From the NCBI RefSeq assembly GCF_011764445.1, contig NZ_BLPG01000001.1, forward strand, positions 4,154,001 through 4,218,000: a stretch of DNA of 64,000 nt. The letters are read 5' to 3'. This stretch comes from Phytohabitans rumicis. Its GTDB lineage: Bacteria > Actinomycetota > Actinomycetes > Mycobacteriales > Micromonosporaceae. The notes under the pieces are model-generated. The model saw nothing but the letters and a program-made list of their open reading frames with translations, was not told the DNA's origin and made no database searches. Made by a program: the position numbers and the translations under genes. Every line of letters starts with the position of its first letter. The first letter of the stretch is position 1. Positions 1 through 18,199 of the stretch are shown piece after piece.

Positions 1-1589
1 CGCACACCGGTGGGTTGGGTGGCTGTCCTGATGCCGGCGTCGTCGATGACGATGCCGGCATCTTGTCCTGGGATCTTGAATATGGGGATCACCCGCCCTT
101 CCTGGTTGATGCGGATCTCGGCGACGAGGGCTTCGATGGCTCGTTTGCGTTCGCCGGAGGTGCCCTCGGCGATGGTGTGGTGCAGGTAAGCGCGTAGCCG
201 TTCGATGGTGCCGGGCGGTGGCGGGGCCGGCTCGGCTTCGAGGCTGGCGGCGAGATCGTCGCGGTGCGCCTTCAGTTGTGTGATCTTGTGCCGGAGTTCT
301 TGGATGCGGGGTCCGGCGGTGGCGTCGTCCATGGTGCCGTTCTCGAACGCGGTGTGGTATCGGTCGATCGCGGTCTGGGTGGTGTTGATCTGGGCGGTGA
401 TGGCGTCGAGTTCGGCGTGCCGGTCGGCGTGGGTGTCGTGGAACTCCTGTCTGGCTTCGGTGATGACCTTGTCCAGGACGGTGTGGGCGTTGGTGTAGAA
501 GTCGTAGAGGGCTTGCAGGACGGCGGTGTCGGTGGGGTCGGCGGCGAGGCGGACGCCGTTGCAGCCGGCGGCGCCGTAGCGGTTGCGGGAGAAGCAGGTG
601 TAGTAGCGGTATCGGGCGTTGCGGCCGCGGACGGCGGTGCCGATGTACTTGCGTCCGCAGTCGGGGCAGGTGATCAGTCCGGTGAGGTGGTACTCGCTGG
701 GTGAGGCGGCGCGTTGGGTGTGGGCGTCGGCGCGGGCGCCGGCGATGTCCCGGGCGGTGTTGAAGGTGCTGCGGTCGATGAGCGGGGTGTGGGCGTCGGT
801 GACGTAGACGTCGCGGTAGGCGATGTCGCCGGCGTAGGCGGGGTTGTCGAGGATGCGGGCGATGGTGTAGCCGGACCAGGGTTTGCCGGTGCGGTTGCGT
901 ACGCCGCGTTGGTTGAGTTCGGTGGCGATGGCGCGGGTGCCGAGCCGTTCCTGTGTGTAGAGGCGGTAGATGTCGCGCAGGATTGGGGCCTCTTCGGGGT
1001 GGGGGACGAGTTTCTGTGTGTCGCGGTCGACGTGGTAGCCGTAGGGGCGGGTGCCGCCGGGCCATTTTCCTTTGCCGGCTTTGGTGCTCATTCCGTTGAT
1101 CACCCTGTCGATGATGGTTTCTCTCTCGAATTCGGCGAAGACGCCGAGGAGTTGGACGAGCATCCGTCCGATCGGGGTGGAGGTGTCGAATGGTTCGGTG
1201 GCGGAGCAGAACGCGACTCCGGCCTCGTCGAGTTCGTGGAGCAGGTCGAGTAGGTCGGACAGGCGGCGGGAGAATCGGTCGACGCGGACGACGAGTAGGA
1301 CGTCGTATTGGCCGGCTTTGGCGGCGCGGAGTGCGCGTTGTAGGTCGGGGCGTTCGGTGGTGGCGCCGGAGGCGTCGTCGCTGAATTCTAGGACGAGGGT
1401 CCAGCCGGGCTGGGACTTGATGTAGTTCTTGAGGGCGGCGAGTTGGGCGTCGATGGAGAAGGGTTGGTGTTCGTCGTCGGTGGAGCGGCGGGTGTAGATG
1501 GCGATCCGGCGCAGGCCGGGCTCGCGGCCCAGCGCTGTGCTGGTGTAGCGGCGTTTGCCGCGCCTGGGTTTCGGGGTGGCGCTGGGCAT
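1..1589 (-). CDS. Large serine recombinase (integrase), cut by left edge
   Basis: Site-specific recombinase of the large serine (phiC31-like) type, which inserts or excises an element at att sites. Read leftwards from the ATG at 1589, about 529 codons are present and the frame is still open at base 1, so the C-terminus is missing. The N-terminal resolvase domain carries the nucleophile in YTRRSTDD (Ser36 of Y-x-R-x-S) and the active-site arginines of RVDRFSRRL. A recombinase domain follows, then a zinc ribbon (TCPDCGRKY, later GCNGV) and a tail rich in coiled-coil heptads. A GAAGGAAG ribosome-binding site precedes the start. With its small companion and the Replic_Relax gene it marks this end of the window as an integrated element. 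The att sites were not identified. Confidence 0.93.
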   Translation of the reverse strand, partial: MPSATPKPRRGKRRYTSTALGREPGLRRIAIYTRRSTDDEHQPFSIDAQLAALKNYIKSQPGWTLVLEFSDDASGATTERPDLQRALRAAKAGQYDVLLVVRVDRFSRRLSDLLDLLHELDEAGVAFCSATEPFDTSTPIGRMLVQLLGVFAEFERETIIDRVINGMSTKAGKGKWPGGTRPYGYHVDRDTQKLVPHPEEAPILRDIYRLYTQERLGTRAIATELNQRGVRNRTGKPWSGYTIARILDNPAYAGDIAYRDVYVTDAHTPLIDRSTFNTARDIAGARADAHTQRAASPSEYHLTGLITCPDCGRKYIGTAVRGRNARYRYYTCFSRNRYGAAGCNGVRLAADPTDTAVLQALYDFYTNAHTVLDKVITEARQEFHDTHADRHAELDAITAQINTTQTAIDRYHTAFENGTMDDATAGPRIQELRHKITQLKAHRDDLAASLEAEPAPPPPGTIERLRAYLHHTIAEGTSGERKRAIEALVAEIRINQEGRVIPIFKIPGQDAGIVIDDAGIRTATQPTGV

Positions 1590-2494: not shown

Positions 2495-2725
2495 TTATGT
2501 CGCTCCACAGAGGACCGATGGGCATGGTTCGTGCCGGCCCAGTCGTGGCCTTCGCCAGTCCGTGGGGCCGCAGTGTCCTGGACGGCGCCGAAGGTTGCCG
2601 GTGGCGTCGCTGTCGTGGCGCTGTGCGGCCGACAGCGGCGTCGCGGCAGCCTCGGCGGGGTGGTCCGGTTGCCTTCCGGTTTTGTGGCGGCACGGGCTGG
2701 CACGGGCGGGTGTTGCTGTGGTCAC
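2495..2725 (-). CDS. Possible small protein coupled to Replic_Relax gene
   Basis: A 76-codon frame whose GTG start overlaps the stop codon of the Replic_Relax gene as GTGA, the coupling used repeatedly in this window. The product is rich in Arg, His, Pro and Cys and resembles nothing I know. The overlap is the only support, and the frame may be fortuitous. Confidence 0.25.
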   Translation of the reverse strand: MTTATPARASPCRHKTGRQPDHPAEAAATPLSAAQRHDSDATGNLRRRPGHCGPTDWRRPRLGRHEPCPSVLCGAT

Positions 2726-3600
2726 GCCGCTGCCTCCTTACGGGTGAAGACGGTCGCGGCGAGGTCGGCCAGCCGGAGCAGGCCGCCGGGGTGACGGTGC
2801 AGCCACCACACCGCTTCGGCGGGACTGGCACCGGTACGGACCGCGTCGGCGCGGGCGGCGGTGGCGACCGGCAGCGCGATCCCCTCCTGGTCGAGGTGTT
2901 GGTGCAGGTTCTGTTCCCGGGCGGCGGCGTGGAGCCAGAACAGCACAGGCCAGACCCTTCCGGTGACCTTGGCCAACGCCGCATAGTCGTAGAGCTTGTC
3001 CACCAGCACGCCGAGCGGTTCGGTGCCGGTGTCGTACTCGACGAAGAACGGCACCCGGGCATCGTGCTCGACCCAGATGCCGTGCCCGTCCGGGCGGATC
3101 CGCGGTTTGTACACCAGGATCTGGACGTCGTCGCCAGGTTCGGCGAAGGCGCCCCTTCCCTGCATCCGCGATGCCGGCCACCACCGCTCCAGCCGAGCTT
3201 CGGGGTGGGTGCGGGCGTAGCCGGCCAGCTCGATGAAGAACTGGTTGACGCCGAGCAGGTGCGGCAGGTTAGCCCGGTTGGTCAGGTGCCAGCGCCGCTT
3301 GCGGGCCGCATCTCGGCGGGGCAGCTCGTCGCCGCGTTGGGCGCAGACGACGTCGACGCCGAGTTGGTCGAGGACGTAGTGGTAGGGGTGGGAGCCACCG
3401 TCGGGTCGCTGGGGCCGGAACCGGGCCAGCACGCCCAGGGCGGCGAGCTTGCGCAGGCGTTCCTGGGCGAAGTCGACGGACGGGAACAGGGCGTGGGCGA
3501 TCTGGGCGGTGGTGAGCACGCCGTGGTCGGCCAGCCAGCCGAGCAGGACGTGGTCACGGTCGGTGAGCGCGGATTGGATGCGCAGGACGTGATCGGTCAT
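2722..3600 (-). CDS. Replication-relaxation family protein
   Basis: A 292-residue protein of the Replic_Relax family, found in actinomycete plasmids and integrative conjugative elements and thought to act in element replication or mobilisation. The N-terminus (residues ~5-70) is a winged-helix-like region around DRDHVLLGWLADHGVLTTAQ. The middle has the family-typical NRANLPHLLGVNQFFIELAGYAR segment (here split by convention at NQFF) and a later acidic/basic core with PDGHGIWVEHDARVPFFVEYDTG. Length fits the family. The start is firm: AGGAGG lies six bases before the ATG. It sits between two groups of TGTCAG words, as a replication gene beside its origin might, and is co-directional with the recombinase. 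Confidence 0.85.
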   Translation of the reverse strand: MTDHVLRIQSALTDRDHVLLGWLADHGVLTTAQIAHALFPSVDFAQERLRKLAALGVLARFRPQRPDGGSHPYHYVLDQLGVDVVCAQRGDELPRRDAARKRRWHLTNRANLPHLLGVNQFFIELAGYARTHPEARLERWWPASRMQGRGAFAEPGDDVQILVYKPRIRPDGHGIWVEHDARVPFFVEYDTGTEPLGVLVDKLYDYAALAKVTGRVWPVLFWLHAAAREQNLHQHLDQEGIALPVATAARADAVRTGASPAEAVWWLHRHPGGLLRLADLAATVFTRKEAAA

Positions 3601-6532: not shown

Positions 6533-7405
6533 CTATGGCCGCAATGGTGCACGCTGCTCGGCCGCCAGTATCTCGTTGATCCGGCGGATCCTGGCATCGG
6601 TGGCGTCGTGTCCGGTGGTCCTGAGGAACCCGGCGCTGTCGACGCGGTCGTGGTAGTGCAGCACCACCGGGTCGGAGGGCATCGGGTCGGCAAGGTGCGT
6701 CGGGTAGTTGTACCGCGACGCGAGAGGGCGCACGGCCAGTCCCAGTTCGTGCATTGTGAGGCCGAAGGAAACCTGGTCCGCGAAGAACGCGAGATCACCC
6801 AGGATTTCAGGGTGGGCCAGGAGCCACCTGTCCCACCTCGCCCACGCCTCCCGAATCGCCTCGAAGGCCCCGCGCGTCAACACGTAGACGCCGCCGTTGA
6901 AGTTGTGCACGAAGGTGGGCTCGCGGGAATGCGTGGAGAGCGCGAGTTCTGGTTCGGCATCGAGGCCCGCCGCTGCGAAGATCCTCCTCCAGTGATTGTG
7001 GGACGGCTTCCCGTTGTCGACAATCTTGGCGGCGACCATCTCCAGGCCGGCGAACAGGCCGCTGACGTCGTCGGCGAAGGCGATGTCGCAGTCGGTGAGG
7101 ACGATCAGATCCGCGTCCTGGAACGCCCCGCCCTGGAGCTGGCTGAGCTTGTTCGAGGGAGGATGGCGCTGGTCGAACCGAGGAACGGCGCGCGTCTCCA
7201 CGCCCTGGTCATGAAGGAAGCCGAGGTGCCGGCGATCCACTCCGTCGACGACATGCACCACCAGTTCATGGGGTTGACGTCGGGCGATTCGTAGGAGTGT
7301 CGTACTCCAGATCCATGCCTGATGGATGTACTTCGGGTCGTGGTCCACGACGCAGGAGAACTTGACCGACGCTTCGTGGGGCCAGTGCGTTGTGGAGTCA
7401 GCCAT
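6533..7405 (-). CDS. Glycosyltransferase, GT8-like (GT-A fold)
   Basis: A 290-residue nucleotide-sugar transferase resembling family 8 enzymes. The metal-binding DxD is in VLTDCDIAFADD, and a family-like acceptor/nucleotide segment reads FNGGVYVLTRGAFEAI. A C-terminal histidine cluster (VVLHYHD) is typical of the retaining GT-A group. The ATG at 7405 is preferred to an upstream in-frame start because it falls 10 bases after the stop of the preceding oxygenase gene, giving a compact operon. It is the last gene of the leftward block from 11173. The acceptor is unknown; with the neighbouring transferases a glycosylated small molecule or surface glycan is likely. Confidence 0.8.
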   Translation of the reverse strand: MADSTTHWPHEASVKFSCVVDHDPKYIHQAWIWSTTLLRIARRQPHELVVHVVDGVDRRHLGFLHDQGVETRAVPRFDQRHPPSNKLSQLQGGAFQDADLIVLTDCDIAFADDVSGLFAGLEMVAAKIVDNGKPSHNHWRRIFAAAGLDAEPELALSTHSREPTFVHNFNGGVYVLTRGAFEAIREAWARWDRWLLAHPEILGDLAFFADQVSFGLTMHELGLAVRPLASRYNYPTHLADPMPSDPVVLHYHDRVDSAGFLRTTGHDATDARIRRINEILAAEQRAPLRP

Positions 7406-7415
7406 TCGCCGACCG

Positions 7416-8135
7416 TCAGACGGGCACACCGTTGATCGTTTCCGTCGAGCGCTGGTAGCCGAGCATGACCTGGAGTCGTTGGTCATGCACCCACAGATCC
7501 GGCGGCAACGGATCGGACAGCGGCCGGATCCATCGTTCGACGAAGCTCATCAGGACCGCTGTCCGCGGACGGCCAGAGGAGTTGAAGCCCGAGCGGTGCC
7601 AGGTTGCCGCCGCCATCACCAACAGCGTTCCGGGCTCTGCCAGGAACGTCTCGGCCGCACTCGGCCACGGCGCCGATGGCCGCCGCGGTGGCACGTGCGA
7701 ACCAGGGACGAGGCGGGTTGCCCCGTTGTGCTCGTCGAACTGGTCCAAGGCCAGGACGCATTGGAGGCCGAGTAGGCCGCCGCTTACCAGCTCAGGCATT
7801 TCGTTGTACGGGTAGTCGATGTGCCAGTCGTCGATGGGCTGGTCAGGGTTGACCACATTGAGGCTGTAGTCGGACAGCAGGTAGTACCGGCCGAGGAGCT
7901 CATCGAGAACGTCGGCGAGGCCGGGTTTGACCAGCATGTCGGCGAAGATCGGATCGTGCCGGTAGAGGTCCCATACCCGTGTGGACTTCGGGTATCGGTT
8001 CGCGTACTCGCCGTCGGCGAGGATGTCCGCAGCACTCTTGAGGGCGCTGCATTGGTCGGGTGTCGCGTAGCCCGGCCAGATGGCGTAGCCGCGCCGGCGG
8101 ACCTCGTCGGCGACCAGGGCAGGGACGATGGTCAT
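7416..8135 (-). CDS. PhyH-family Fe(II)/2-oxoglutarate dioxygenase
   Basis: A 239-residue protein of the phytanoyl-CoA dioxygenase superfamily, non-haem iron enzymes that hydroxylate or otherwise oxidise small molecules using 2-oxoglutarate and O2. The facial triad is visible: H-x-D in DDWHIDYPYNEM, the distal His in TWHRSGFN, and the 2-oxoglutarate-binding Arg a few residues on in RPRTAVLMSF. Length is usual. Its ATG overlaps the stop of the 71-residue upstream gene as ATGA, so translation is coupled. In a block of glycosyltransferases it most likely tailors the same product, for example by hydroxylating an amino acid or sugar. The substrate cannot be read from sequence. Confidence 0.88.
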   Translation of the reverse strand: MTIVPALVADEVRRRGYAIWPGYATPDQCSALKSAADILADGEYANRYPKSTRVWDLYRHDPIFADMLVKPGLADVLDELLGRYYLLSDYSLNVVNPDQPIDDWHIDYPYNEMPELVSGGLLGLQCVLALDQFDEHNGATRLVPGSHVPPRRPSAPWPSAAETFLAEPGTLLVMAAATWHRSGFNSSGRPRTAVLMSFVERWIRPLSDPLPPDLWVHDQRLQVMLGYQRSTETINGVPV

Positions 8136-8347
8136 GCCTCGCTCCTCGGATCGGACGTGGCCACGCGGAGTTCGATCAGGTCGGCGCGCCGGTCGTGGCG
8201 GGACAGGTCGACCAGGACGCCGTCCTGGTCCAGCAGGGCGACGATCGTGTCGGCGAAGGCGTCGAGATCGTCGTCGTCGCGGCGTACCGCGAATGTCCGG
8301 ACGGTCGTCGCCAATGGCTCAACCTCGTCGGCTCCAACGTCGCTCAT
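8132..8347 (-). CDS. Small acidic protein coupled to the PhyH gene
   Basis: A 71-residue acidic protein (RRDDDDLDAFADTIVALLDQDG) without a recognised domain. Its stop overlaps the PhyH start as ATGA and its ATG at 8347 lies five bases after the stop of the upstream GT-B gene, so it is embedded in the operon and almost certainly translated. It does not carry the D-S-L phosphopantetheine motif of a carrier protein. It could be a partner or chaperone of the oxygenase; no function is assigned. Confidence 0.65.
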   Translation of the reverse strand: MSDVGADEVEPLATTVRTFAVRRDDDDLDAFADTIVALLDQDGVLVDLSRHDRRADLIELRVATSDPRSEA

Positions 8348-8352
8348 CCCAA

Positions 8353-10029
8353 TCACCCTCTCAGAAGGTGGTCTGCCTGTTCGGCGAGCACGGCGTCCAC
8401 GCCGGTCAGGCGGAGCGGTTGTCGTGCCGCCCACCCTCCGATTGTTGTCAGGTAGTCGGCCACCTCCGCTTCGGGTTGTGCGCCGAGGTCGAGGAGCACG
8501 ACTGCCGCAGCAGTGGACCGGAGCAGTCGCGCCGTGCGGCGCTGGAATGCGTCCGGCCGGTTCGTGGAGGCGTTGATCGATTCGGCCGAGACACTCAGCA
8601 GCGCAGGGGAAGGCGGCCGCTGTCGAAGCCATCGTTCGGCTGCCGGTGAGGGGCTGCGCTGGATGAGTAGCCGGATGCCGTGATCCACGATCGCCTGCGG
8701 TGGCACTGCGCCTGGGTCACAGTCCACCAGTGCCGCAACTGGCCTGCCAGGCACGGTTGCCGGCTGCCCGCTTCTGCTGAGCGACGCAAGCCCCACCACG
8801 CCGACGCCGTCTTGGCGGCTGTCGAGGACCGCCGCGTTCCGGAGGGTCTCGGGCAGCTGGGCGCGAAGTTTGTCCGGTTCGATCGAGGCGGGCGCGATGA
8901 GGACCAGGAGGAGCAGCTTGGGCGGCAGCTCCGGCGGGCGGGTCGGCTCGGCGCGGTGATGGATGGCGCGAACCACGGCTTCGAGGGCCGTCGCCGACGC
9001 CGGGAGCCTCGCTGTCCTGGGCTGCCGGGTGAGAGCGTCGCGGATCAGCGCTTCGAGGCTGCTGCGGTCTGGTGCCCCGACGGCTCCGCCGAACTGGGCG
9101 GCGATCCGGTGGGCGTGTTCATCGAGCCCTTCCATGAACGACACGTCCGGTACGAGGACGAGCTGCCCGCGTCCCGCGAGCGCCTCGGAAAGGGCGTTGT
9201 TGCCAGGCTTGATGACGGCGACGTCCGCAGCGGCGAGCAGGGCGGGCAGGTGCGGCTCGAACCGTCGCACCGTGACGGTGGCGGTTTCGTGGAGCGGGCG
9301 GCCGGCGTAGTAGGGGCCTGTGACCAGTACGAACCGTGCCGGATGTCCTTCATCGGCCAATGCTGCCGCGATCGCCTGGCATGCGGAGAATAGGCGGTCG
9401 CCGTACCCGTCGGGCATCTGGTCGCCGCCCGCGCCGCCGTTGACGACGACGAGCGGCGCGCCGTTGGGTACGTACGCCGACCGGACCGCCGCGACCTCGT
9501 CCCGGGCCGGCGCGCGAGCGATGTTGCCGACGAAGGTGAACCGGCCGCTGGACTCCACCGCGGCCAGCGAGTCACCGCTGTGGCCTTCCTGGAGGAAGGC
9601 TTCGTGCTCTTGGGCGATGAGGACCTGGTCGTAGTGGGCAAAGTCGCCGCGCTGGCGGATCTGGTCGAAGGAGAGCCCGTCGAGCCGTCGCATGACCAGG
9701 AGCCGGGGCCGGTCGGCCAAGGCGGGCAGCCGCCGGTACCGGGCGTCCGGGTAGGTGTCCTCGATGGCCACGGCCGGGTCGAGCCGGTCGAGCAGCCGGT
9801 CGAGGAGGTCGGTGTAGAGGTCCTCGGCGATGGCAGACGGGACCCGGTGTAGAAGCGGGAAGTTGATCACCCGCACGGGCGTGTTCCGGTACAGGGCCAG
9901 GGAGCTGGCCTGGCTGATCACGATGGGCCGGAGCCGGCCGGCGTCCTGGACAGCTTCGGCGATCAGCAGGGCCCGGCGGATGTGACCGAAGCCGATGCCG
10001 TTCTTGACCAGGAAGACAGCGTTCCTCAT
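8353..10029 (-). CDS. GT-B glycosyltransferase, MurG/GT28-like, with C-terminal extension
   Basis: A 558-residue protein. The N-terminal domain opens with VKNGIGFGHIRRALLIAEA, the glycine-rich GT-B loop of MurG-like enzymes. The second domain has NGGAGGDQMPDGYG and the nucleotide-sugar site GNNALSEALAGRGQLVLVP, both GT28-like. MurG relatives end near residue 370, but here about 190 more residues follow with no recognisable domain (including DHGIRLLIQRSPSPAAERWL), possibly a second substrate-binding or partner domain. Its ATG overlaps the stop of the upstream GT4 as ATGA. It probably transfers a sugar to the same acceptor as its neighbours. Confidence 0.82.
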   Translation of the reverse strand: MRNAVFLVKNGIGFGHIRRALLIAEAVQDAGRLRPIVISQASSLALYRNTPVRVINFPLLHRVPSAIAEDLYTDLLDRLLDRLDPAVAIEDTYPDARYRRLPALADRPRLLVMRRLDGLSFDQIRQRGDFAHYDQVLIAQEHEAFLQEGHSGDSLAAVESSGRFTFVGNIARAPARDEVAAVRSAYVPNGAPLVVVNGGAGGDQMPDGYGDRLFSACQAIAAALADEGHPARFVLVTGPYYAGRPLHETATVTVRRFEPHLPALLAAADVAVIKPGNNALSEALAGRGQLVLVPDVSFMEGLDEHAHRIAAQFGGAVGAPDRSSLEALIRDALTRQPRTARLPASATALEAVVRAIHHRAEPTRPPELPPKLLLLVLIAPASIEPDKLRAQLPETLRNAAVLDSRQDGVGVVGLASLSRSGQPATVPGRPVAALVDCDPGAVPPQAIVDHGIRLLIQRSPSPAAERWLRQRPPSPALLSVSAESINASTNRPDAFQRRTARLLRSTAAAVVLLDLGAQPEAEVADYLTTIGGWAARQPLRLTGVDAVLAEQADHLLRG

Positions 10030-11173
10030 CGCGCCCTGGCCCGAGCGGTCGTGCCGGCCTCAGCGAGTCCGAGAAGGGTGAGGAGTACCTGCCGGGCATG
10101 GTCCGGGCCATGCCGTTCTTTGATGGTCTTGCGTGCGGCGCGCCCGAGCCGCTGCTGCTCGGCGTGGTCGTCGGCAAGCTCGAGGAGGTTTGCGGTCATC
10201 GCGCGGACGTCGTGCTCGGCGACAAGTCGTCCGTTGACCTTGTCGGTGATGGCCTCGGGGATCCCCGCGTGGTTGGTGGCGATGACCGGTAGACCGGCCG
10301 CCATGGCTTCGAGGATTGCCAGCGGTTGGCCTTCGGTGTCGCCGTCCTGCGGCGACGTGACGGCGTGGTGCAGCAGGATGTCCGCGCCTCGGATGAGAGC
10401 GAGGGTGTCGGAGTGTGGGAGTCGGCCGTGGACGTGAACCCGATCCGTTAGCTCGTGCTCGTCCACGTACTGGCGGACTTCGCCCATCAGAGGACCGTCG
10501 CCGACCAGATCCAGGACCACGTTCTGGTGGCGGCTGGCGGCGTCGCGGAAGGCTTCCAGCAGCAGGAGCGGCGCCTTCTTCGGTACCAGGCGGCCGACGG
10601 CGACGCACCGGACGTCTGGGCTGCGGTCGCGGGTTGTGGCTGGGCGAGGTCGCGGGAGTTCGACGCTGTAGCGGACGACGTGGATCTTCTCGGCTGGCAG
10701 CCCCAGGGTTGTGAGGGCGTCGGCGGCGACTGCGCTGGGGACGATGATCCCAGCCGCCAGTTCGTAGCGGCGGTAGGCGTCGCGCCACCGCTGCTCGGTC
10801 AATCTGGCCGAGAAGTCGACGCCGTGTCCCCGTAGCCACACGCGGACCGACTGGCGAAGGAGGAAGTCGAACCAGCGGTCCGCGAAGTCCAGGTACTCGA
10901 CGAGCACCGCCTCGACACTGTGCGTTGCGAGGAAGTCGGCGACCGCGTTGAGGCGTTCGGCTGACGGTGGCGGATCGCCGGGAAGCGGGTCGAAGGCGAG
11001 GACGGGACATTCGCCGGCGTCCCAGGCTTGGCCGTGCAGGACCGACTCACCTCTCGGAGGGGGTCCGCGACGATGGCGGTTCCGCCTGGCAGCAGCTCAC
11101 GGGTGTCCCAGCGGATGAAGGTCTCGCTGATCACGCCGATCTCGGGCAGGAAGACACAGAGTGGCCGGGACAC
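10026..11173 (-). pseudogene. GT4 glycosyltransferase, one frameshift
   Basis: Family 4 GT-B glycosyltransferase of about 382 residues if repaired. The N-terminus (GTG at 11173, PEIGVISETFIRWDT) and the rest are in different frames. The break is at a G run at 11059-11063 (CCCCC in the coding strand): one extra C restores ADPPPRGESVLHGQAWD and joins the frames. The downstream part is a full GT4 C-terminal domain with VAVGRLVPKKAPLLLLEAF, the nucleotide-sugar region GDGPLMGEV and EGQPLAILEAMAAGLPVIAT. The first gene of the block, it overlaps the next by ATGA. The break may be a consensus error or a real lesion. No clear ribosome site precedes the GTG; TACTGT five bases upstream would fit a leaderless start. 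Confidence 0.8.
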
Positions 11174-11310
11174 GCCGAACAGTATCGGGCGCCCTGGCGA
11201 TGGTGGCTAGGCCCCAACAACGATGGCAGGCGGCGAGGCACTGTGGCGTGCTCGTGGCGCGGGGGTAATCCATGAAGCTACACACGGAAGGTCGACTAGA
11301 TTGGTATCCC
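11174..11310. promoter_or_regulatory. Divergent promoter region, GT4 block and argS
   Basis: The 137 bases hold the promoters for the leftward glycosyltransferase block and rightward argS. TAGATT at 11297-11302 lies eight bases before the argS ATG at 11311, and TACTGT lies five bases before the GT4 GTG. Both match the TANNNT -10 pattern of leaderless actinobacterial genes. The -35 regions are weak. This is inference from spacing. Confidence 0.35.
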
Positions 11311-13035
11311 ATGGCGACCCTGGAAAAGCTGCTACATGATCGGCTAGCGTCCGCGTTCGAGGCTGTGGCCGGGGTTCCGGCCGACCCGAGTGTGCGCCGA
11401 TCCCAGCACGCGGACTTCCAGGCCGATGGTGCCCTCGCTCTGGCCCGCCAGCTAGGGCGTAAGCCCCGGGACATCGCCGCCGACGTGGTTCAGCAAGCTC
11501 GGCTTGATGATCTATGCGCGTCGGTGGAGATCTCGGGGCCGGGGTTTATCAACCTGACTGTCGCCAACGCCGCGATCGCGCCGCTGCTCGCCGCGATGAA
11601 CAGGGACGAACGGCTCGGCGTGCAGTCCGTCGCGGCTCCTGACACCGTGGTGGTCGACTACTCGGCGCCGAACGTTGCGAAGGAGATGCACGTCGGCCAC
11701 CTTCGGTCGACGGTGATCGGGGATGCCGCTGTCCGGGTGCTGGAGTGGCTCGGCCACCGGGTGATCAAGGCCAACCACCTCGGCGACTGGGGCACCCCGT
11801 TCGGCATGTTGATCGAGCACCTGCTCGATATCGGCGAGACCGAGGCCGCCCACGAGTTGTCGCTGGGCGACCTCAACACCTTCTACCAGGCGGCCAGGAC
11901 GAAGTTTGACGCCGACGACACGTTCAAGGAGCGGGCCCGGACTCGGGTCGTCGCCCTGCAAAGCGGGGACGAGCAGACCCGCCGGATGTGGCGGCTGCTA
12001 GTCGATGAATCGGAGAAGTACTTCCTGGCCGTGTACGACCGGCTCGATGTGTGCCTTACCGAGAAGGACTTCTTCGGCGAGAGCTTCTACAACGACATGC
12101 TGATGCCGGTCGTTGAGGAGTTGGACCGGCTCGGGCTGCTGCGGGAGAGCGACGGCGCCAAGGTTGTGTTCCCGGCGGGCTTCACCAACCGGGATGGCGA
12201 CCCACTGCCGATCATCGTGCGGAAACGTGACGGCGGATTCGGGTACGGCGCCACAGACCTGGCAGCGATCCGGTACCGGACCCAGGAGTTGGCCGCTACC
12301 CGGCTGTTGTACGTGGTTGGGCTGCCGCAGCAGCAGCACTTTGAGATGGTGTACGAGGTCGCCCGGGAGGCTGGCTGGTTGAGGCCACCGGCCCGCGCCG
12401 CCCATATCGGGTTCGGCTCCGTTCTCGGCCCGGACGGCAAGATCTTCCGTACCCGGGCCGGCGATACGATCAAGCTGGTCGACCTGATCGACGAGGCGGT
12501 CGCGCGGGCGGCGGCTCTCATCGAGGAGAAAAACCCAGACCTCGACGAGTCCACCCGCGCCGAGGTCGCGCAGATGGTCGGCATCGGCGCGATCAAGTAC
12601 GCAGACCTGTCCAATGACCGGACGAGAAACTATGTCTTCGACTGGAAGCGGATGCTGTCCTTCGACGGCAACACCGCCCCATACCTGCAATACGCACGGG
12701 CCCGGATTTTGTCGATCTTCCGTCGTGGTGAGGTCACACCGGTACGGGACCTAGCTGCCATCGTCGTTACCGAACCGGCTGAGCGGGCCTTGGCGATCGA
12801 GCTGCTGGCCTTCGAGGGCGTGGTCACTGAGGTCGCCGAGTCGCTGGAGTTCCACCGGCTCGCCCTTTACCTGTACGGGGTGGCGACGGCGTTTACGGCG
12901 TTCTACGAAAAGTGCCCGGTCCTAAAGGCCGAGGACCAGGTACGCGAGAGCCGGCTGGCGCTGAGCGACCTGACCGCACGCGTACTCGGCCGCGGGCTTG
13001 GCCTGCTTGGTATCGGTGCCCCCGACCGTATGTGA
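11311..13035 (+). CDS. argS: Arginyl-tRNA synthetase
   Basis: Complete class I synthetase of 574 residues, charging tRNA-Arg with arginine. The HIGH motif is EMHVGHLRSTVIGD, the KMSKS-equivalent is GPDGKIFRTRAGDT as in other ArgS, and the C-terminus is the DALR anticodon-binding domain ending in LGLLGIGAPDRM. Start at 11311 (MATLEKLL) matches family N-termini; an upstream in-frame ATG at 11272 has a GGGGGT site and would add 13 residues. The gene is alone on the plus strand inside an otherwise leftward cluster and stops one base short of the convergent sulfotransferase gene. The genome's main argS is probably elsewhere, so this may be a second copy: a resistant target, or a supplier of Arg-tRNA to the pathway. 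That is untested. Confidence 0.93.
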   Translation: MATLEKLLHDRLASAFEAVAGVPADPSVRRSQHADFQADGALALARQLGRKPRDIAADVVQQARLDDLCASVEISGPGFINLTVANAAIAPLLAAMNRDERLGVQSVAAPDTVVVDYSAPNVAKEMHVGHLRSTVIGDAAVRVLEWLGHRVIKANHLGDWGTPFGMLIEHLLDIGETEAAHELSLGDLNTFYQAARTKFDADDTFKERARTRVVALQSGDEQTRRMWRLLVDESEKYFLAVYDRLDVCLTEKDFFGESFYNDMLMPVVEELDRLGLLRESDGAKVVFPAGFTNRDGDPLPIIVRKRDGGFGYGATDLAAIRYRTQELAATRLLYVVGLPQQQHFEMVYEVAREAGWLRPPARAAHIGFGSVLGPDGKIFRTRAGDTIKLVDLIDEAVARAAALIEEKNPDLDESTRAEVAQMVGIGAIKYADLSNDRTRNYVFDWKRMLSFDGNTAPYLQYARARILSIFRRGEVTPVRDLAAIVVTEPAERALAIELLAFEGVVTEVAESLEFHRLALYLYGVATAFTAFYEKCPVLKAEDQVRESRLALSDLTARVLGRGLGLLGIGAPDRM

Positions 13036-13036
13036 G

Positions 13037-13771
13037 TCACAGATACCCGAGGGTGCGGCACAACGGCCGCAGACCCTCGGGTATCTCGGCGTCCGTGGGC
13101 AGCGGCCGGCCGGGCAGAACCCGGCCGGCCCGGATCCGGTCGGTGAAGTCCCCGATGCCGGACAGGAACGGGCCGTGGTCGCGCTTGCCGTACTCGACCA
13201 TGCCAGCCTCCCACGGCACATCGAGGTACTCGCACAGCTCCCGGCTCACCCGCTCCGGGTGAGCGGTGAAGTCCTCGTACCGGACCGTGAGGCCGGTAAG
13301 CGCCCGCCGCGCCTCGCCGAGGTGCGTCAGGAACAGCTCGACGAGCTCCGTTGATTCGGTGGGTGTCGCATGGGGGCGGGCCGCGATCGCGGACTCCACC
13401 ACGTGTACCGGGTGGCGGAGCAGGAAGATGTAGCGGGCTTCCGGCCAGCACTCGGCAACGCGGCGCCACCGCAACACATTCGTCGGCGTCTTGTCGACCA
13501 CCAACTGCTTGCCTGAGCGGATCAGCTCCCGGTGCAGCAGCCGGTCCCACAGCAGGTGCTCCAGCTTGCGCTCATCAAGCTGCGCTACCTGCATGGCAAG
13601 CCGCGCGAACCGGCTATCCATCCCCACCGTCAAGTCCACCAAGTGCAGCTCGTGAGGAGCATGGATGCGGGAATGAGTGTCGAGCACACAGCGCAGCAGC
13701 GTCGACCCGGAACGGATCGAACTCAGAATGAACACCGGTGACGCAACCAGCCGCTCCACCAGAGCCTTCAT
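13037..13771 (-). CDS. Sulfotransferase
   Basis: A 244-residue PAPS-dependent sulfotransferase. The 5'-phosphosulfate loop is SSIRSGSTLLR (residues ~17-27) and the 3'-phosphate-binding segment is LLRHPVHVVESAIAARP. The spacing and size suit the bacterial Sulfotransfer_3-type group that sulfates sugars or small molecules. Its ATG overlaps the stop of the nucleotidyltransferase gene (ATGA), making it the last gene of the 18.2-13.0 kb block. With four sugar transferases in the cluster, a sulfated glycoside is a reasonable inference. Confidence 0.87.
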   Translation of the reverse strand: MKALVERLVASPVFILSSIRSGSTLLRCVLDTHSRIHAPHELHLVDLTVGMDSRFARLAMQVAQLDERKLEHLLWDRLLHRELIRSGKQLVVDKTPTNVLRWRRVAECWPEARYIFLLRHPVHVVESAIAARPHATPTESTELVELFLTHLGEARRALTGLTVRYEDFTAHPERVSRELCEYLDVPWEAGMVEYGKRDHGPFLSGIGDFTDRIRAGRVLPGRPLPTDAEIPEGLRPLCRTLGYL

Positions 13772-14283
13772 AGCCGAATCGGCTGCTCTCTATCCAGCCC
13801 GAGTATGCGACGCAACTGTCCCGGCGGCGCCGGGTGCTGGCCCAGCACGTCGTGCGCCCGCGCGGTGAGCAAGTCGAGCGCGGGCGCATGCCGGATGACG
13901 ATCCGGCGGTCCAGCAACGCCCGGAGCACCTCGACGTTGTCGTGCTCGGCTAGGTGCGGGTCGATGTGACCGGTGGCGGCCGCATCGCTTAGGACGTGGT
14001 GGAGCAGGTCGCTGCCCAGCGCGGCGTGGCAGACATCGGCGGTGAACAACTCGATCGGGTACTCGAGGTCGGGTTCGTAGCCGAGACGGCGTTGAAGTAC
14101 CCCGAAATCGGTCTTGACCGTCTCCAGGTCGGCGCTCGCGAGCGGCTTCCTGACTAGAACGAAGCAGTCGAGGTCGCTGGCCGGGCCGGCCCGACCGGAG
14201 GCCACCGAGCCGTAGATGAACGCGGCGACCAGGTCACTACCGAGGTGTTCGTCGAGGAAGGAGGCGATCATGTCGGCGTTCAT
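13768..14283 (-). CDS. Minimal nucleotidyltransferase-fold protein
   Basis: A 171-residue protein with the pol-beta-type motif FIYGSVASGRAGPASDLDCFV, that is GS-x(n)-D-x-D, the metal and nucleotide site of minimal nucleotidyltransferases. The remaining 110 residues are helical. No HEPN partner adjoins it, so a toxin-antitoxin role is not indicated. ATGA overlaps on both sides tie it to the upstream kinase-decarboxylase and downstream sulfotransferase. It could adenylylate a pathway intermediate or an antibiotic-like product, as aminoglycoside nucleotidyltransferases do. Start ATG 14283 is fixed by the overlap. Confidence 0.75.
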   Translation of the reverse strand: MNADMIASFLDEHLGSDLVAAFIYGSVASGRAGPASDLDCFVLVRKPLASADLETVKTDFGVLQRRLGYEPDLEYPIELFTADVCHAALGSDLLHHVLSDAAATGHIDPHLAEHDNVEVLRALLDRRIVIRHAPALDLLTARAHDVLGQHPAPPGQLRRILGLDREQPIRL

Positions 14284-17200
14284 GGCACGTCGCTCCAGCC
14301 GGCCGGCCCCGCGACCGTCGGCCGACCTGTGCCGCCGGCGGGTCTGGCGCCGGTGATGTCGGCGAGCATGGCCGGTACAAGGGGCCTCGCAGCGTGCGTG
14401 AGGTACTCGACAGCGCGGTCCAGGTCGGCTTGGGTGATCAGCGGGTTTCCGGGACACGCGGCCATGATCGTGTAGCTGATATCCGCGCCGGCCCCGATTC
14501 GGTCAGCGAGATCGGCGAGTGTGTGTTCGTCGAAGCAGACCTCACCCGACTGGTACAGCATCGCGTTCAGCCGCGACGTGTACTGGCTGACGACTCGGGC
14601 CGCATGACGTCTGCGCTCCGGAGGAAGGGCACGTATCGCCTGCCGGATCGTGGGTGGGCAGAGGACGAACGCGAGGCGGTAGAAGTCGACGTCGTTGAGG
14701 GAGATGAACAGCCCGGTCTCGTCGATGCGTCGCTCGAGGTAGCGGACGTGCGCCTGGCGGCTCTCCACCAGATCGCCCAGCCGCCGCACACCGACGTGGC
14801 GCAGCAGTGTCCAGGTCGCCAGGCTCTCGAACCCGCGGGAGCCGAGGAACGGTGTGATCAGCCCGAGGTCCCAGCAGTCGTCCGCCATCACGGCCGTCTC
14901 ATGGCGGCTGAACTGGGTGAGGACCCCGCGCTGCCGAAACAGCACATACGAGGACGGATACGGCGTGAACAGGCCCTTGTGCGGATCGAGCGACACGGAG
15001 TCGGCATGTTCGATGCCGGCCAGGTGCCGGCGGCGCAGCCGTTCGCTGAAGATGAGGCTGCCGCCGTGGCAGGCGTCGACATGGAACCAGACACCGTGGC
15101 GGCGGCAGATCTCGGCGAGCGTTGCGAGGTCATCCAGGCCGGTGGTGCGACAGTTCCCGGCGACTCCGACGACCATGAACGGAGTCGTCCCGGCCGGCGG
15201 ATCCGCTAGGGCCGCCTCGACGGCCGCCGGATCCGTCGTGTACCCGGATCGGGCACCGACGTTGACGATGCCGTCCCAGCCCAGACCGAGGTGGAACGCG
15301 GCGTCGCTGTGGGAGTAGTGGGCGATCGGACCGGCCATGACGACGGTCGGCCGGGTGCCCATGGCCGGCAGACCGTGCCGCCGTACCTCCGGGAACCGCC
15401 GGCCAAGCGCCACCAGTATCGCGAGGTGGTTGGACAGGTGCCCGCCCGTCGCCCACAGGCCGGCGACGTCCTTGACCCCGCGCAGGTCCGTCAACGGCGC
15501 GGACTCGTAGCCCACCAGGTCACGGAGCCACTCGATGACCTGGATCTCGACGAAGGTCGCCGCGGGCGCGCTGCGGTCGACCGCGATCAGGTTCTGGTTG
15601 AGCAGCCGCCCGAGCAGACCGCCGGCCATCGCCGCGATGGCATTGCCCGAATCCGGGAAGGCGAGATATCTCGGGTGGGACTGCGACACCGAGTACGGCA
15701 CGATCTTGGCTTCCAGATCCGCCAGGACCGCGTCCAGGTCGGAGCCTTCCGACGGCAGCGGCCGGTCGAGCAAGGAGGCCAGATCTGTCGGTGAACGGTA
15801 CCGCAGGTAAGGCTCACCGTCGTCAGCGCGGTGGACGAAGTCCAAGCCGATGCGGGTGGCAGCAGCCAGGGACTCCTCGTGCCCCTTCCGCGCCGCGCCG
15901 CTTCCGACGAGGTAAGTGTCCAGCAACTCGCGATCGAGCCCGCCGATCGCGGTCCCGGCGCTGTACAACAGCTCGTCGACGAGCCGGCCCGGATCGGTGG
16001 TGAGGCGCTGGTACCAGTGCTCGGCCTCCATCCGGTGGGCCGCAAGGCGCTCTACGCCAATAGCGTCGAGAGCCTCCACGAGTGCGGCGGTCCTGGGGGC
16101 GGACGGGTCAGGCATGCCGCTGGCGTGTCGGCGAAGGCTGCGGCAGATGTCGGCTTCCATGGCGGCCTCGAACGCCTCCAGACAGGCGACGAGCTGTGCG
16201 GGCTCAGCGACCGCGGTCAGGTGGCGGAACAGCCGTACTTCCAGCTCGACCGGGATGAAGTCGCCCCAGAAGTGGCCCAGCTCATGCCCGTGCAGGACGC
16301 CACTGTCCCGATCGCGGGTCGGACGGGTGTGCCGGCCTTCGAGTGCGACGCTGGCCTCCAGCAGCTCTCTGCGTTGGCGCCAGGTCACCATGTCGACGCC
16401 GAGCAGCGCCCGTTCGAAGTCGTCCGCAGGCATCGGGTAGTCGTCCGGCACGTCGGGCCCGCCGTCGACAGGTGCGAAGAGCCGCACGGTCTCCTCTGCG
16501 GTGAGGCAGTCGGCGAAGAAGACCCGGTGCCACAGTAGACACTCCGCGGCCCGCGCCGGATCCTGGCTGGCGTCGACGGACTCCTCGAAATCGATGAGCA
16601 CGACCTGACCACCACGCAGGAACATGTTCCGGGGCGCGAAGCCCTGCCACACGAGACCCTGGTCGGTCATCGCTGCTCTCAGCGCGGCGAGCGATTCCAC
16701 GAGCGCCGAGCGTTGAGTGGCGTCGAGGTCCCGCGAGCGCAATCGGTCCTCCAACGTGCGACCAAGGTTGGGCGCGAAGACCCACGGGTCGCCGTCGGGC
16801 ACGTCGACCACCGCGTACTCGTCGTGCGCCTTGATACTGAGCGGGGCGGCTCGCGACGCGGCGGACAACGCCGGCTTGATCCGGCTCTGGTGCCGGGACC
16901 GCGCCGCGACCGACTCGGCCGGCCACCTCAGCGCGACCAGTTCGTGGCTGGCGGCGCGAACCAGATGCGCCTGCCGGGACGGGTGGATGGGGACGGCGGT
17001 CTGCTCCAGGCGCGGCTGAGCCTCGACGAACCTGGTGACGTCCGGATGGCGCGCGACGAGGTCCCGGACCAGGCTGACAACCGGTCCGGCACCACCGACC
17101 GCCGGATTGCTGCCACCCTGGGTTTCCTGTGCTGGCGGGCGAGGCGTTCCAGCAAGCAGCGCCACCGCGGCGCCCGGGTCGTGCACGGCTGTGGCGAGTG

Positions 17201-17375
17201 CCGCCTCGACCGTCTTGGGCGGGGCGTCCCGTTCGAGCTGAGCCAGTACGACCGCGTACCGGTCGGCGAACCGCCAGGACAGCGCGCCCGCCGACGACAA
17301 TGTCGCCCGCCATGCCGATACCCGACCCGCCCGCTGCGTGGCGGCATCGGCTGCCGCCGAGGTTGTCGCGGTCAC
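14280..17375 (-). CDS. Kinase-like / HELGH / PLP-decarboxylase fusion protein
   Basis: A 1031-residue protein with three parts. Residues ~180-300 are a kinase or aminoglycoside-phosphotransferase-like lobe: WQGFAPRNMFL stands where H-x-D-x(4)-N is expected, keeping Asn but with Gly in place of the catalytic Asp, while DFEES keeps the metal Asp. Residues ~330-530 are mainly helical and unassigned but contain HGHELGHFWGDF, an HExxH pattern at 364-368, and later HRMEAEHWY. Residues ~545-1015 are a group II PLP decarboxylase: ATGGHLSNHLAI, the cofactor Asp in FHVDACHGGS, and the Schiff-base Lys800 in SLDPHKGLFTPYPSS. The family normally acts on Glu, Asp, aromatic or diamino acids. It starts with GTG overlapping the upstream gene (GTGA). 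I know of no described protein with this order. Confidence 0.82.
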   Translation of the reverse strand: MTATTSAAADAATQRAGRVSAWRATLSSAGALSWRFADRYAVVLAQLERDAPPKTVEAALATAVHDPGAAVALLAGTPRPPAQETQGGSNPAVGGAGPVVSLVRDLVARHPDVTRFVEAQPRLEQTAVPIHPSRQAHLVRAASHELVALRWPAESVAARSRHQSRIKPALSAASRAAPLSIKAHDEYAVVDVPDGDPWVFAPNLGRTLEDRLRSRDLDATQRSALVESLAALRAAMTDQGLVWQGFAPRNMFLRGGQVVLIDFEESVDASQDPARAAECLLWHRVFFADCLTAEETVRLFAPVDGGPDVPDDYPMPADDFERALLGVDMVTWRQRRELLEASVALEGRHTRPTRDRDSGVLHGHELGHFWGDFIPVELEVRLFRHLTAVAEPAQLVACLEAFEAAMEADICRSLRRHASGMPDPSAPRTAALVEALDAIGVERLAAHRMEAEHWYQRLTTDPGRLVDELLYSAGTAIGGLDRELLDTYLVGSGAARKGHEESLAAATRIGLDFVHRADDGEPYLRYRSPTDLASLLDRPLPSEGSDLDAVLADLEAKIVPYSVSQSHPRYLAFPDSGNAIAAMAGGLLGRLLNQNLIAVDRSAPAATFVEIQVIEWLRDLVGYESAPLTDLRGVKDVAGLWATGGHLSNHLAILVALGRRFPEVRRHGLPAMGTRPTVVMAGPIAHYSHSDAAFHLGLGWDGIVNVGARSGYTTDPAAVEAALADPPAGTTPFMVVGVAGNCRTTGLDDLATLAEICRRHGVWFHVDACHGGSLIFSERLRRRHLAGIEHADSVSLDPHKGLFTPYPSSYVLFRQRGVLTQFSRHETAVMADDCWDLGLITPFLGSRGFESLATWTLLRHVGVRRLGDLVESRQAHVRYLERRIDETGLFISLNDVDFYRLAFVLCPPTIRQAIRALPPERRRHAARVVSQYTSRLNAMLYQSGEVCFDEHTLADLADRIGAGADISYTIMAACPGNPLITQADLDRAVEYLTHAARPLVPAMLADITGARPAGGTGRPTVAGPAGWSDVP

Positions 17376-18199
17376 GCCGGTACTCCCGCCGGTCGATACC
17401 GCTGCTCCAACTCGGCCAGGATCTCGGCCTTCACGTCCGGCTCCTGGGTGTGGTACATCGAGCCGGCTGCGACCTTGCGGTCACAGTGGAACACGTCCAG
17501 CGGCCATGCCTCGGGAAACGCGATCTGCCGGCCTCCTGTCGTGCCGACGTGGGACACAAGGTCTTCCCAGTTGTAACTCAGGTCCGGGCGGTCGATGAAC
17601 ACGTCCAGATCCCACGCCCCGAACCGTTCTGCAACGGGGACGAAGCGCGCCACGTCGTACGCGATGAAATGCGCCGACAACCGGTTGACCGACCGCACCC
17701 CAGATTCGACCGCTGGACCTTCGTCGGCCAGCTTCCACGACCACTGGTCGTAGTCGTTCACCTTGGACAGCACCGGAACCTGCGGATGCCGCTCGAACAA
17801 CTCCCGACATTCGGTCAAGACGTCGAACGATCGCTCGGACCGGTACATGACCACGTCTCCCTCGATGACGATCAGATACGGTGCCCGCGGTGTGAAGAAG
17901 CGACGGTGGCCGTTGTTCGAGGGATCTCCGCTCGCCACATGCCGGTGGCGCCGACGAAGTTGCAGCTCGTCGACGCCCCACGCATCCAGCAGTGCCGGAA
18001 GCTGTTCGGCGACGTCTTGGGGAGTCCCGTCAGCTCGTAGGACCACCTCGAACGATTGGGACGTCCCGTTGGTCAGCGCTTCGAGGCACCGCGGCAGCGT
18101 CGTCTTGAGAAGGTCGAGATCGGAGTGGAACAGGAAGGCGATCCGGAACATCGGACCGGATGGCCCGTCCTGCGGCTCAATTGATCGCGCGCTGTCCAT
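17372..18199 (-). CDS. Glycosyltransferase-like protein (GT-A-like)
   Basis: A 275-residue protein probably of the GT-A fold. An N-terminal beta strand and loop (FRIAFLFHSDLDLLKTTLP) is followed by a possible metal motif in LIVIEGDVVMYRS and a C-terminal part with SYNWEDLVSHVG and VFHCDR. Assignment to GT2 or a related family is tentative because the DxD is not clean. Start ATG 18199 was preferred to an in-frame start 90 bases upstream because GGAAGAGG precedes it. It heads the leftward block 18199-13037 and is coupled to the fusion gene by a GTGA overlap. Confidence 0.6.
   Translation of the reverse strand: MDSARSIEPQDGPSGPMFRIAFLFHSDLDLLKTTLPRCLEALTNGTSQSFEVVLRADGTPQDVAEQLPALLDAWGVDELQLRRRHRHVASGDPSNNGHRRFFTPRAPYLIVIEGDVVMYRSERSFDVLTECRELFERHPQVPVLSKVNDYDQWSWKLADEGPAVESGVRSVNRLSAHFIAYDVARFVPVAERFGAWDLDVFIDRPDLSYNWEDLVSHVGTTGGRQIAFPEAWPLDVFHCDRKVAAGSMYHTQEPDVKAEILAELEQRYRPAGVPA

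Follow-up and report, generated by a model that had tools for sequence, protein, structure and literature searches.

A conserved gene cluster with ArgS as a constant member

The window, a stretch of 64,000 nucleotides from the soil actinomycete Phytohabitans rumicis (contig NZ_BLPG01000001.1, positions 4,154,001–4,218,000), contains a set of leftward genes for glycosyltransferases, an oxygenase, a sulfotransferase, a nucleotidyltransferase, and a kinase-decarboxylase fusion protein (KD), with a rightward gene for a complete arginyl-tRNA synthetase (argS, encoding ArgS) among them. This set is shown here to be a conserved biosynthetic gene cluster that has complete ArgS as a constant member. 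The argS gene lies beside the biosynthetic genes in 14 of 14 actinobacterial loci of two related arrangements (11/11 of type A, to which the window belongs, and 3/3 of type B), making it a linked extra copy of an essential-enzyme gene; these loci were retrieved through the decarboxylase or the GT-A-fold glycosyltransferase GTa, and not through ArgS. At least two argS genes occur in every cluster genome searched. The window ArgS matches TIGR00456, PF00750, PF05746, and PF03485, identifying it as an arginyl-tRNA synthetase. Of the 43 columns invariant across 37 non-cluster ArgS proteins it retains every one, and it differs at two columns of 90–99% conservation.

An earlier sequence-only reading of the window had proposed an unusual cluster around a complete argS located between two operons. 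Checks of open reading frames and profiles found all of its named genes in place (Table 1). The stop-start overlaps it described, of the ATGA or GTGA kind, are seen at five junctions (17372–17375, 14280–14283, 13768–13771, 10026–10029, and 8132–8135). ArgS is indeed complete, but its recurrence makes it a constant member rather than a bystander. Consistent with that reading, no polyketide synthase (PKS), nonribosomal peptide synthetase (NRPS), or ribosomally synthesized and post-translationally modified peptide (RiPP) gene was recognized among the window cluster's own genes in profile scans of the proteins. Type-A clusters have no recognized PKS or NRPS gene that would draw the attention of cluster finders. 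The cluster is apparently undescribed: as the sequence-only reading had also supposed, no described cluster of this gene content was found in the open-access literature (subscription papers, preprints, and MIBiG lay outside this scope). That reading had named gene-neighborhood comparison beforehand as a possible refutation, and in this comparison the genes stay together, with their order kept across genera.

Table 1. Features of the cluster in the window
Feature	Coordinates	Strand	Basis
GTa, GT-A-fold glycosyltransferase, 259 amino acids	17372..18151	-	AlphaFold (pLDDT 81) and Foldseek; no Pfam family
KD, 1031 amino acids: kinase-fold N-terminus (~1–500) and group II pyridoxal phosphate (PLP) decarboxylase C-terminus	14280..17375	-	PF00282
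Minimal nucleotidyltransferase, pol-beta type (NT)	13768..14283	-	PF01909, 28.5 bits (cut-off 21)
Phosphoadenosine phosphosulfate (PAPS)-type sulfotransferase (ST)	13037..13771	-	PF13469, E 1.8e-24
ArgS, complete arginyl-tRNA synthetase	11272..13035	+	TIGR00456, 491.6 bits (cut-off 261.65)
GT4 glycosyltransferase, frameshift-split	10026..~11173	-	PF00534, E 1.6e-33, C-terminal part
GT28-like (GT-B) glycosyltransferase, 558 amino acids	8353..10029	-	PF04101, E 0.0066, under Pfam cut-off
Acidic protein, 71 amino acids	8132..8347	-	no Pfam match
PhyH-family 2-oxoglutarate/Fe oxygenase	7416..8135	-	PF05721, E 5.8e-16
Glycosyltransferase-like accessory protein	6533..7405	-	no Pfam match

The 3' end of argS is 1 base from the end of the sulfotransferase gene, and argS is divergent from the operon on the GT4 side. 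Its true start is most likely at position 11311, which would give a protein of 574 amino acids, like its orthologues. The sulfotransferase scores 87.7 bits against PF13469 (cut-off 27), which places it among the PAPS sulfotransferases.

In KD, residues 529–903 match PF00282 (E 8.9e-45) and constitute a group II PLP decarboxylase, whose nearest solved structures are CSAD, an unnamed PLP decarboxylase, GADL1/GAD, and DABA-type enzymes. The N-terminal domain of KD has a kinase fold (AlphaFold pLDDT 82.6), with Foldseek matches to kinases, including PRPK, at E 1.6e-5 to 1e-3; TM scores by query are ~0.2–0.27, and those by target reach ~0.5. For GTa, the Foldseek matches are POMGNT1, GnT-I, SpsA, and TarS (TM ~0.4–0.55, 10–15% sequence identity). 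GTa is 72–99% identical among type-A loci, and 34–41% identical to its counterparts in type B and in a Roseibium plasmid described below.

Four glycosyltransferase-like proteins had been called in the sequence-only reading, and all four are present; one is not intact, and another is probably outside the cluster core. The two halves of the GT4 gene (11173–10026) are in different frames in the window, where a run of C is one C shorter than in a close relative (G057). Because the halves share a single frame in three relatives (L033, L034, and L035), the split may be either a sequencing error or true damage. The gene at 6533–7405 has a match (87%) in G057 (L033) only and is unmatched in G091 and G221 (L034 and L035), both of whose loci reach beyond PhyH; it is therefore probably not part of the cluster core. 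The remaining type-A loci stop too near PhyH for this comparison or have another arrangement. Orthologues of the GT28-like protein are 53–96% identical in type-A loci, and a homologue of the 71-amino acid protein is found in eight of the nine type-A loci searched, the ninth (L119) stopping within the GT28-like gene.

To the left of the cluster are a recombinase-like gene, named by eye (window 3–1589), and a neighboring gene (2722–3600), both of which are common to G057. The flank genes tested were unmatched in the G091 locus, and thus the surroundings vary among close relatives.

Distribution and related arrangements

The cluster was sought in a family sample of 300 genomes (299 besides the window's own), in a phylum sample of 396 genomes, and, through a scan with GTa, in a collection with one genome per species. 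The full-length KD fusion occurs in 3 of the 299 other family genomes, at 95, 84, and 64% identity, and in these three relatives the cluster order is the same as in the window, with argS on the opposite strand. A fusion this restricted, together with an order kept across genera, means that the association of the cluster genes is beyond chance. Two further family genomes have a decarboxylase half (46–49% identity). At E 1e-20, GTa was detected in only one of the 396 phylum genomes, the window's own, and the GTa family is accordingly rare.

The GTa scan yielded 12 loci. Type-A hosts are Phytohabitans maris, Salinispora cortesiana, Mangrovihabitans endophyticus, Micromonospora sp. CPCC 205371, and six Streptomyces; type-B hosts are Streptomyces rubellomurinus and Micromonospora sp. 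NBRC 107566. Four of the 12 coincide with loci of the family sample (G091, G221, G057, and G015) and were counted once, which gives 11 distinct type-A loci, including the window, in Micromonosporaceae and Streptomyces, and three type-B loci, including one from G103. The kinase-decarboxylase fusion is kept in all 11 type-A loci, where argS runs on the opposite strand. The Streptomyces type-A arrangement is somewhat different, with an added PHP-domain gene in 6/6 and a methyltransferase gene in 5/6; a GT4 match was not found in 5/6 within the stretch examined. A 7.3-kb contig of G176 (L165) carries a truncated sulfotransferase gene, argS, and a GT4 gene, and is a remnant or broken type-A cluster.

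Type-B loci (L036, L037/L118, and L117) encode two radical S-adenosylmethionine (SAM) enzymes, a GT4 enzyme, a decarboxylase, GTa, a sulfotransferase, and a kinase-like/nucleotidyltransferase protein. The decarboxylase, GT-A enzyme, and kinase-like domain are homologous to those of the window, and a nucleotidyltransferase domain and argS are common to both types, with argS divergent from the neighboring operon in two of the three type-B loci. The two radical SAM enzymes of type B, which resemble peptide maturases, replace the PhyH and GT-B enzymes of the window. The nucleotidyltransferase signature lies at the C-terminus of the type-B kinase-like protein, with a weak Pfam match in L117 (E 0.013) and identified by eye in the others. 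Thus, the kinase-like domain is fused to a decarboxylase in type A and to a nucleotidyltransferase in type B, and this switch of partner ties the kinase, decarboxylase, and nucleotidyltransferase functions together. A RiPP reading was considered and rejected, as type A has no recognized radical SAM enzyme; no systematic search for a precursor gene was made. The type-B loci of G103 (L068) and G015 (L037/L069) seem to have a second block in common, which contains an amidohydrolase, an AAA/VWA protein, and, as identified by eye in G015, acetoacetate-decarboxylase-like and citrate-synthase-like proteins.

A B-like cassette is also present on a Roseibium aggregatum plasmid (NZ_CP045635.1, 219,594 bp), near an NRPS/PKS gene; NRPS-type genes likewise lie near the type-B cassette of G103. 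Among 72,556 plasmid records, no other has a GTa relative. Its argS is ~72 kb from the cassette on the same circle; in a search at E 1e-20 with the window ArgS as query, argS turned up in only 53 of the 72,556 records, several of them chromosome-sized. While all three actinobacterial type-B loci have a sulfotransferase, no sulfotransferase match was found in the Roseibium cassette. The plasmid (L148 and L152) also encodes MbtH and methylaspartate mutase subunit E, and parts of it have two listings that share the same protein accessions.

Type C (G150, G156, and G113) is more distant than type B and consists of genes for a decarboxylase, a methyltransferase, a nucleotidyltransferase, and ArgS in one operon, with argS inside this same-strand operon in 3/3 loci; the nucleotidyltransferase of G156 is called as two pieces. 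Judged by its methyltransferase, type C occurs in 4 of the 300 family genomes. G201 has a variant in which a methyltransferase gene and a nucleotidyltransferase-like gene are ~10 kb from argS, and no decarboxylase match was found in the stretch examined. Adjoining these two genes, and genes that are NRPS-like by eye, is a gene for a 384-amino acid protein (L157:9955–11109) with a partial match to TIGR00456 (93.8 bits, below cut-off, model positions 111–397).

Phylogeny of the cluster ArgS proteins

The cluster decarboxylases group together in a tree, types A and B each forming one clade and jointly a single clade, and type C another, all separate from 21 further family decarboxylases; the search was a quick one and gave long-branch warnings (Roseibium, L039, and L032 among them). 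The ArgS proteins belong to several lineages. An initial ArgS tree had 58 rows after 27 loci (duplicates and near-copies) and rows of a 461-amino acid type had been dropped; a careful tree had 31 rows, with 10 of the 11 type-A copies. In Micromonosporaceae, the type-A ArgS proteins group with second copies that are solitary, whereas the Streptomyces ones fall with the only ArgS present in two genomes of another family. Among the type-B proteins, two are beta-type and one is Streptomyces-type, and type C stands apart. A single clade for the 10 type-A copies was rejected (p-AU 1.7e-14). This disparity between the decarboxylase and ArgS trees indicates that the decarboxylase has been inherited along with the cluster, while ArgS has been exchanged without losing its position there, unless the solitary copies originated in clusters and later left them.

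As for changes at conserved positions, all six Streptomyces type-A ArgS proteins carry D159E, which is also found in a single solitary copy, and four of the six carry D35H; other changes are scattered and mostly in type C. Convergent substitution was considered and set aside, as was a third, divergent housekeeping ArgS lineage in the window's genus: the protein concerned was the 461-amino acid neighbor, which by place and size is probably LysA. In G000, G057, G091, and G221, the cluster ArgS is the sole alpha copy. Salinispora cortesiana has a third argS, of alpha type and split into two frames (L158:7716–9433), besides its cluster and housekeeping copies; it looks as if it were redundant with the cluster copy.

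Possible product and role of ArgS

From the enzyme classes we infer that the product is a glycosylated, probably sulfated, amino-acid-derived compound. The PLP decarboxylase would turn an amino acid into an amine, which the GT-A, GT4, and GT-B enzymes would glycosylate; the PhyH enzyme would hydroxylate, the sulfotransferase would attach sulfate, and the kinase-fold domain and nucleotidyltransferase may serve to activate an intermediate or to mask it. The product, in its mature or a processed form, could then interfere with arginyl-tRNA synthetase (ArgRS) as a mimic of arginine or arginyl-adenylate. The cluster ArgS, being insensitive to the product or able to discriminate against it, would allow the producer to survive, with the housekeeping argS elsewhere in the genome. 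The linkage and phylogeny suggest, rather than prove, that ArgS is such a self-protection copy of the product's target, and we give this slightly less than an even chance. Swapped ArgS lineages would be expected, since any insensitive ArgS would do. A wider version is possible but more doubtful: that a natural-product family of Streptomyces, Micromonosporaceae, and the Roseibium plasmid targets ArgRS, each with a swapped-in resistant ArgRS, and that solitary second ArgS copies represent acquired resistance.

A number of observations weigh against self-protection. Alpha-type ArgS is found in 224 of the 300 family genomes, cluster copies included, so a spare ArgS alone is no mark of resistance, and the notion that two argS genes per genome is special is weakened. 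The presence of a spare copy proves nothing in itself, and the argument for self-protection therefore rests on linkage. Fifteen alpha-ArgS neighborhoods, several on short contigs, comprise the type-A remnant of G176, the type-C variant of G201, and 13 others in which core cluster genes are absent beside argS, save a PhyH-like gene (27%) in L172; nine further neighborhoods have no core cluster gene beside argS. No substitution at conserved positions common to all cluster ArgS groups stands out, and the swapping of ArgS would also be compatible with a role in biosynthetic supply, while the ArgS tree could also have come from solitary copies escaping clusters. No exporter occurs among the core cluster genes, and no natural ArgRS inhibitor was found in the portions of the open-access literature searched. 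The kinase assignment of the sequence-only reading holds for the fold, but the catalytic Asp of the HxD motif is replaced by an invariant Gly in 12 of 12 aligned rows, this position having been placed by hand against the Bud32-type loop; the Asn and Asp downstream are retained. In the loci examined (L164–L178), alpha-type argS lies mostly away from cluster genes and in unrelated surroundings; by eye, from first residues, argS adjoins a GltX-like gene in L169 and L172 and a TrpRS-like gene in L175.

The main rival holds that ArgS supplies Arg-tRNA or arginyl adenylate, from which an unrecognized transferase moves arginine onto the amine or sugar; candidates for this transferase are the 71-amino acid protein, the C-terminal region of the GT28-like protein, and a 208-amino acid protein of the Streptomyces clusters. 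Such a role would account for the constancy of ArgS in types A and B, the operonic argS of type C, and the partial ArgS-like protein next to NRPS-like genes in G201, and SerRS in valanimycin synthesis offers a precedent. However, the aminoacyl-tRNA transfer families FemX, PEARL, CDPS, and L/F-transferase had no match in the cluster proteins scanned, which were not every gene of every locus, leaving no visible consumer of Arg-tRNA; the type-A argS is inverted and outside the biosynthetic operons; and the housekeeping ArgRS should already provide Arg-tRNA. We consider supply unlikely and favor self-protection over it because of the missing transferase families, the placement of argS outside the type-A operons, and the exchange of copies, the last of which fits supply too.

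It is less likely still that the pathway makes a glycoconjugate for the cell surface or for storage (a sulfated glycan or glycolipid), with ArgS serving its arginylation, and not a secreted antibiotic. Up to four glycosyltransferases and a sulfotransferase, in a core that has no exporter, are consistent with this, but the patchy spread (12 loci in the one-per-species collection and 1 of 396 phylum genomes) and the NRPS-type genes near the type-B cassettes of Roseibium and G103 point to specialized metabolism. Least probable of all is that ArgS is a passenger or general spare, the cluster having formed or landed next to a common Micromonosporaceae alpha ArgS. The abundance of alpha ArgS in the family agrees with this, as do copies in G101, G072, and G025 that are 83–89% identical to the window's and have no core cluster gene alongside (two are on short contigs). 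Against it, argS is at or near the same place in all 14 type-A and type-B loci across Streptomyces and Micromonosporaceae, which makes a passenger unlikely; the ArgS of type-B loci is of the beta or the Streptomyces type; argS is present on the Roseibium plasmid as well; and a random 20-kb stretch would contain argS with a frequency of ~1% or less (by arithmetic, from two to three argS per 5–11 Mb).

If ArgS is self-protective, argS is a handle for finding a new class of antibiotic target, ArgRS being essential; if it is biosynthetic, new arginine-transfer chemistry would be expected. Agrocin 84 has its own resistant LeuRS copy, and albomycin a resistant SerRS copy. In overall layout these systems resemble the window, since a complete, additional aminoacyl-tRNA synthetase accompanies the biosynthetic genes and the housekeeping copy lies elsewhere; they differ in that the synthetase here is ArgRS. 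In valanimycin-type pathways, a cluster synthetase (SerRS) supplies aminoacyl-tRNA. The window is similar in having a synthetase within a biosynthetic cluster, but differs in having no recognized aminoacyl-tRNA transferase. Aminopropylation of microcin C involves the methyltransferase-like MccD and the decarboxylase domain of MccE. By enzyme class, type C is similar, as its loci join ArgS with a SAM enzyme, a group II decarboxylase, and a nucleotidyltransferase; the window cluster, in contrast, has no recognized SAM enzyme. Trojan-horse inhibitors of aminoacyl-tRNA synthetases, such as agrocin 84, are a precedent for the proposed mode of action, and those named in the part of the review drawn on here concern synthetases other than ArgRS (PMC7916415). 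The authors of the ichizinone paper describe the argS that appears there as unrelated (PMC12144821).

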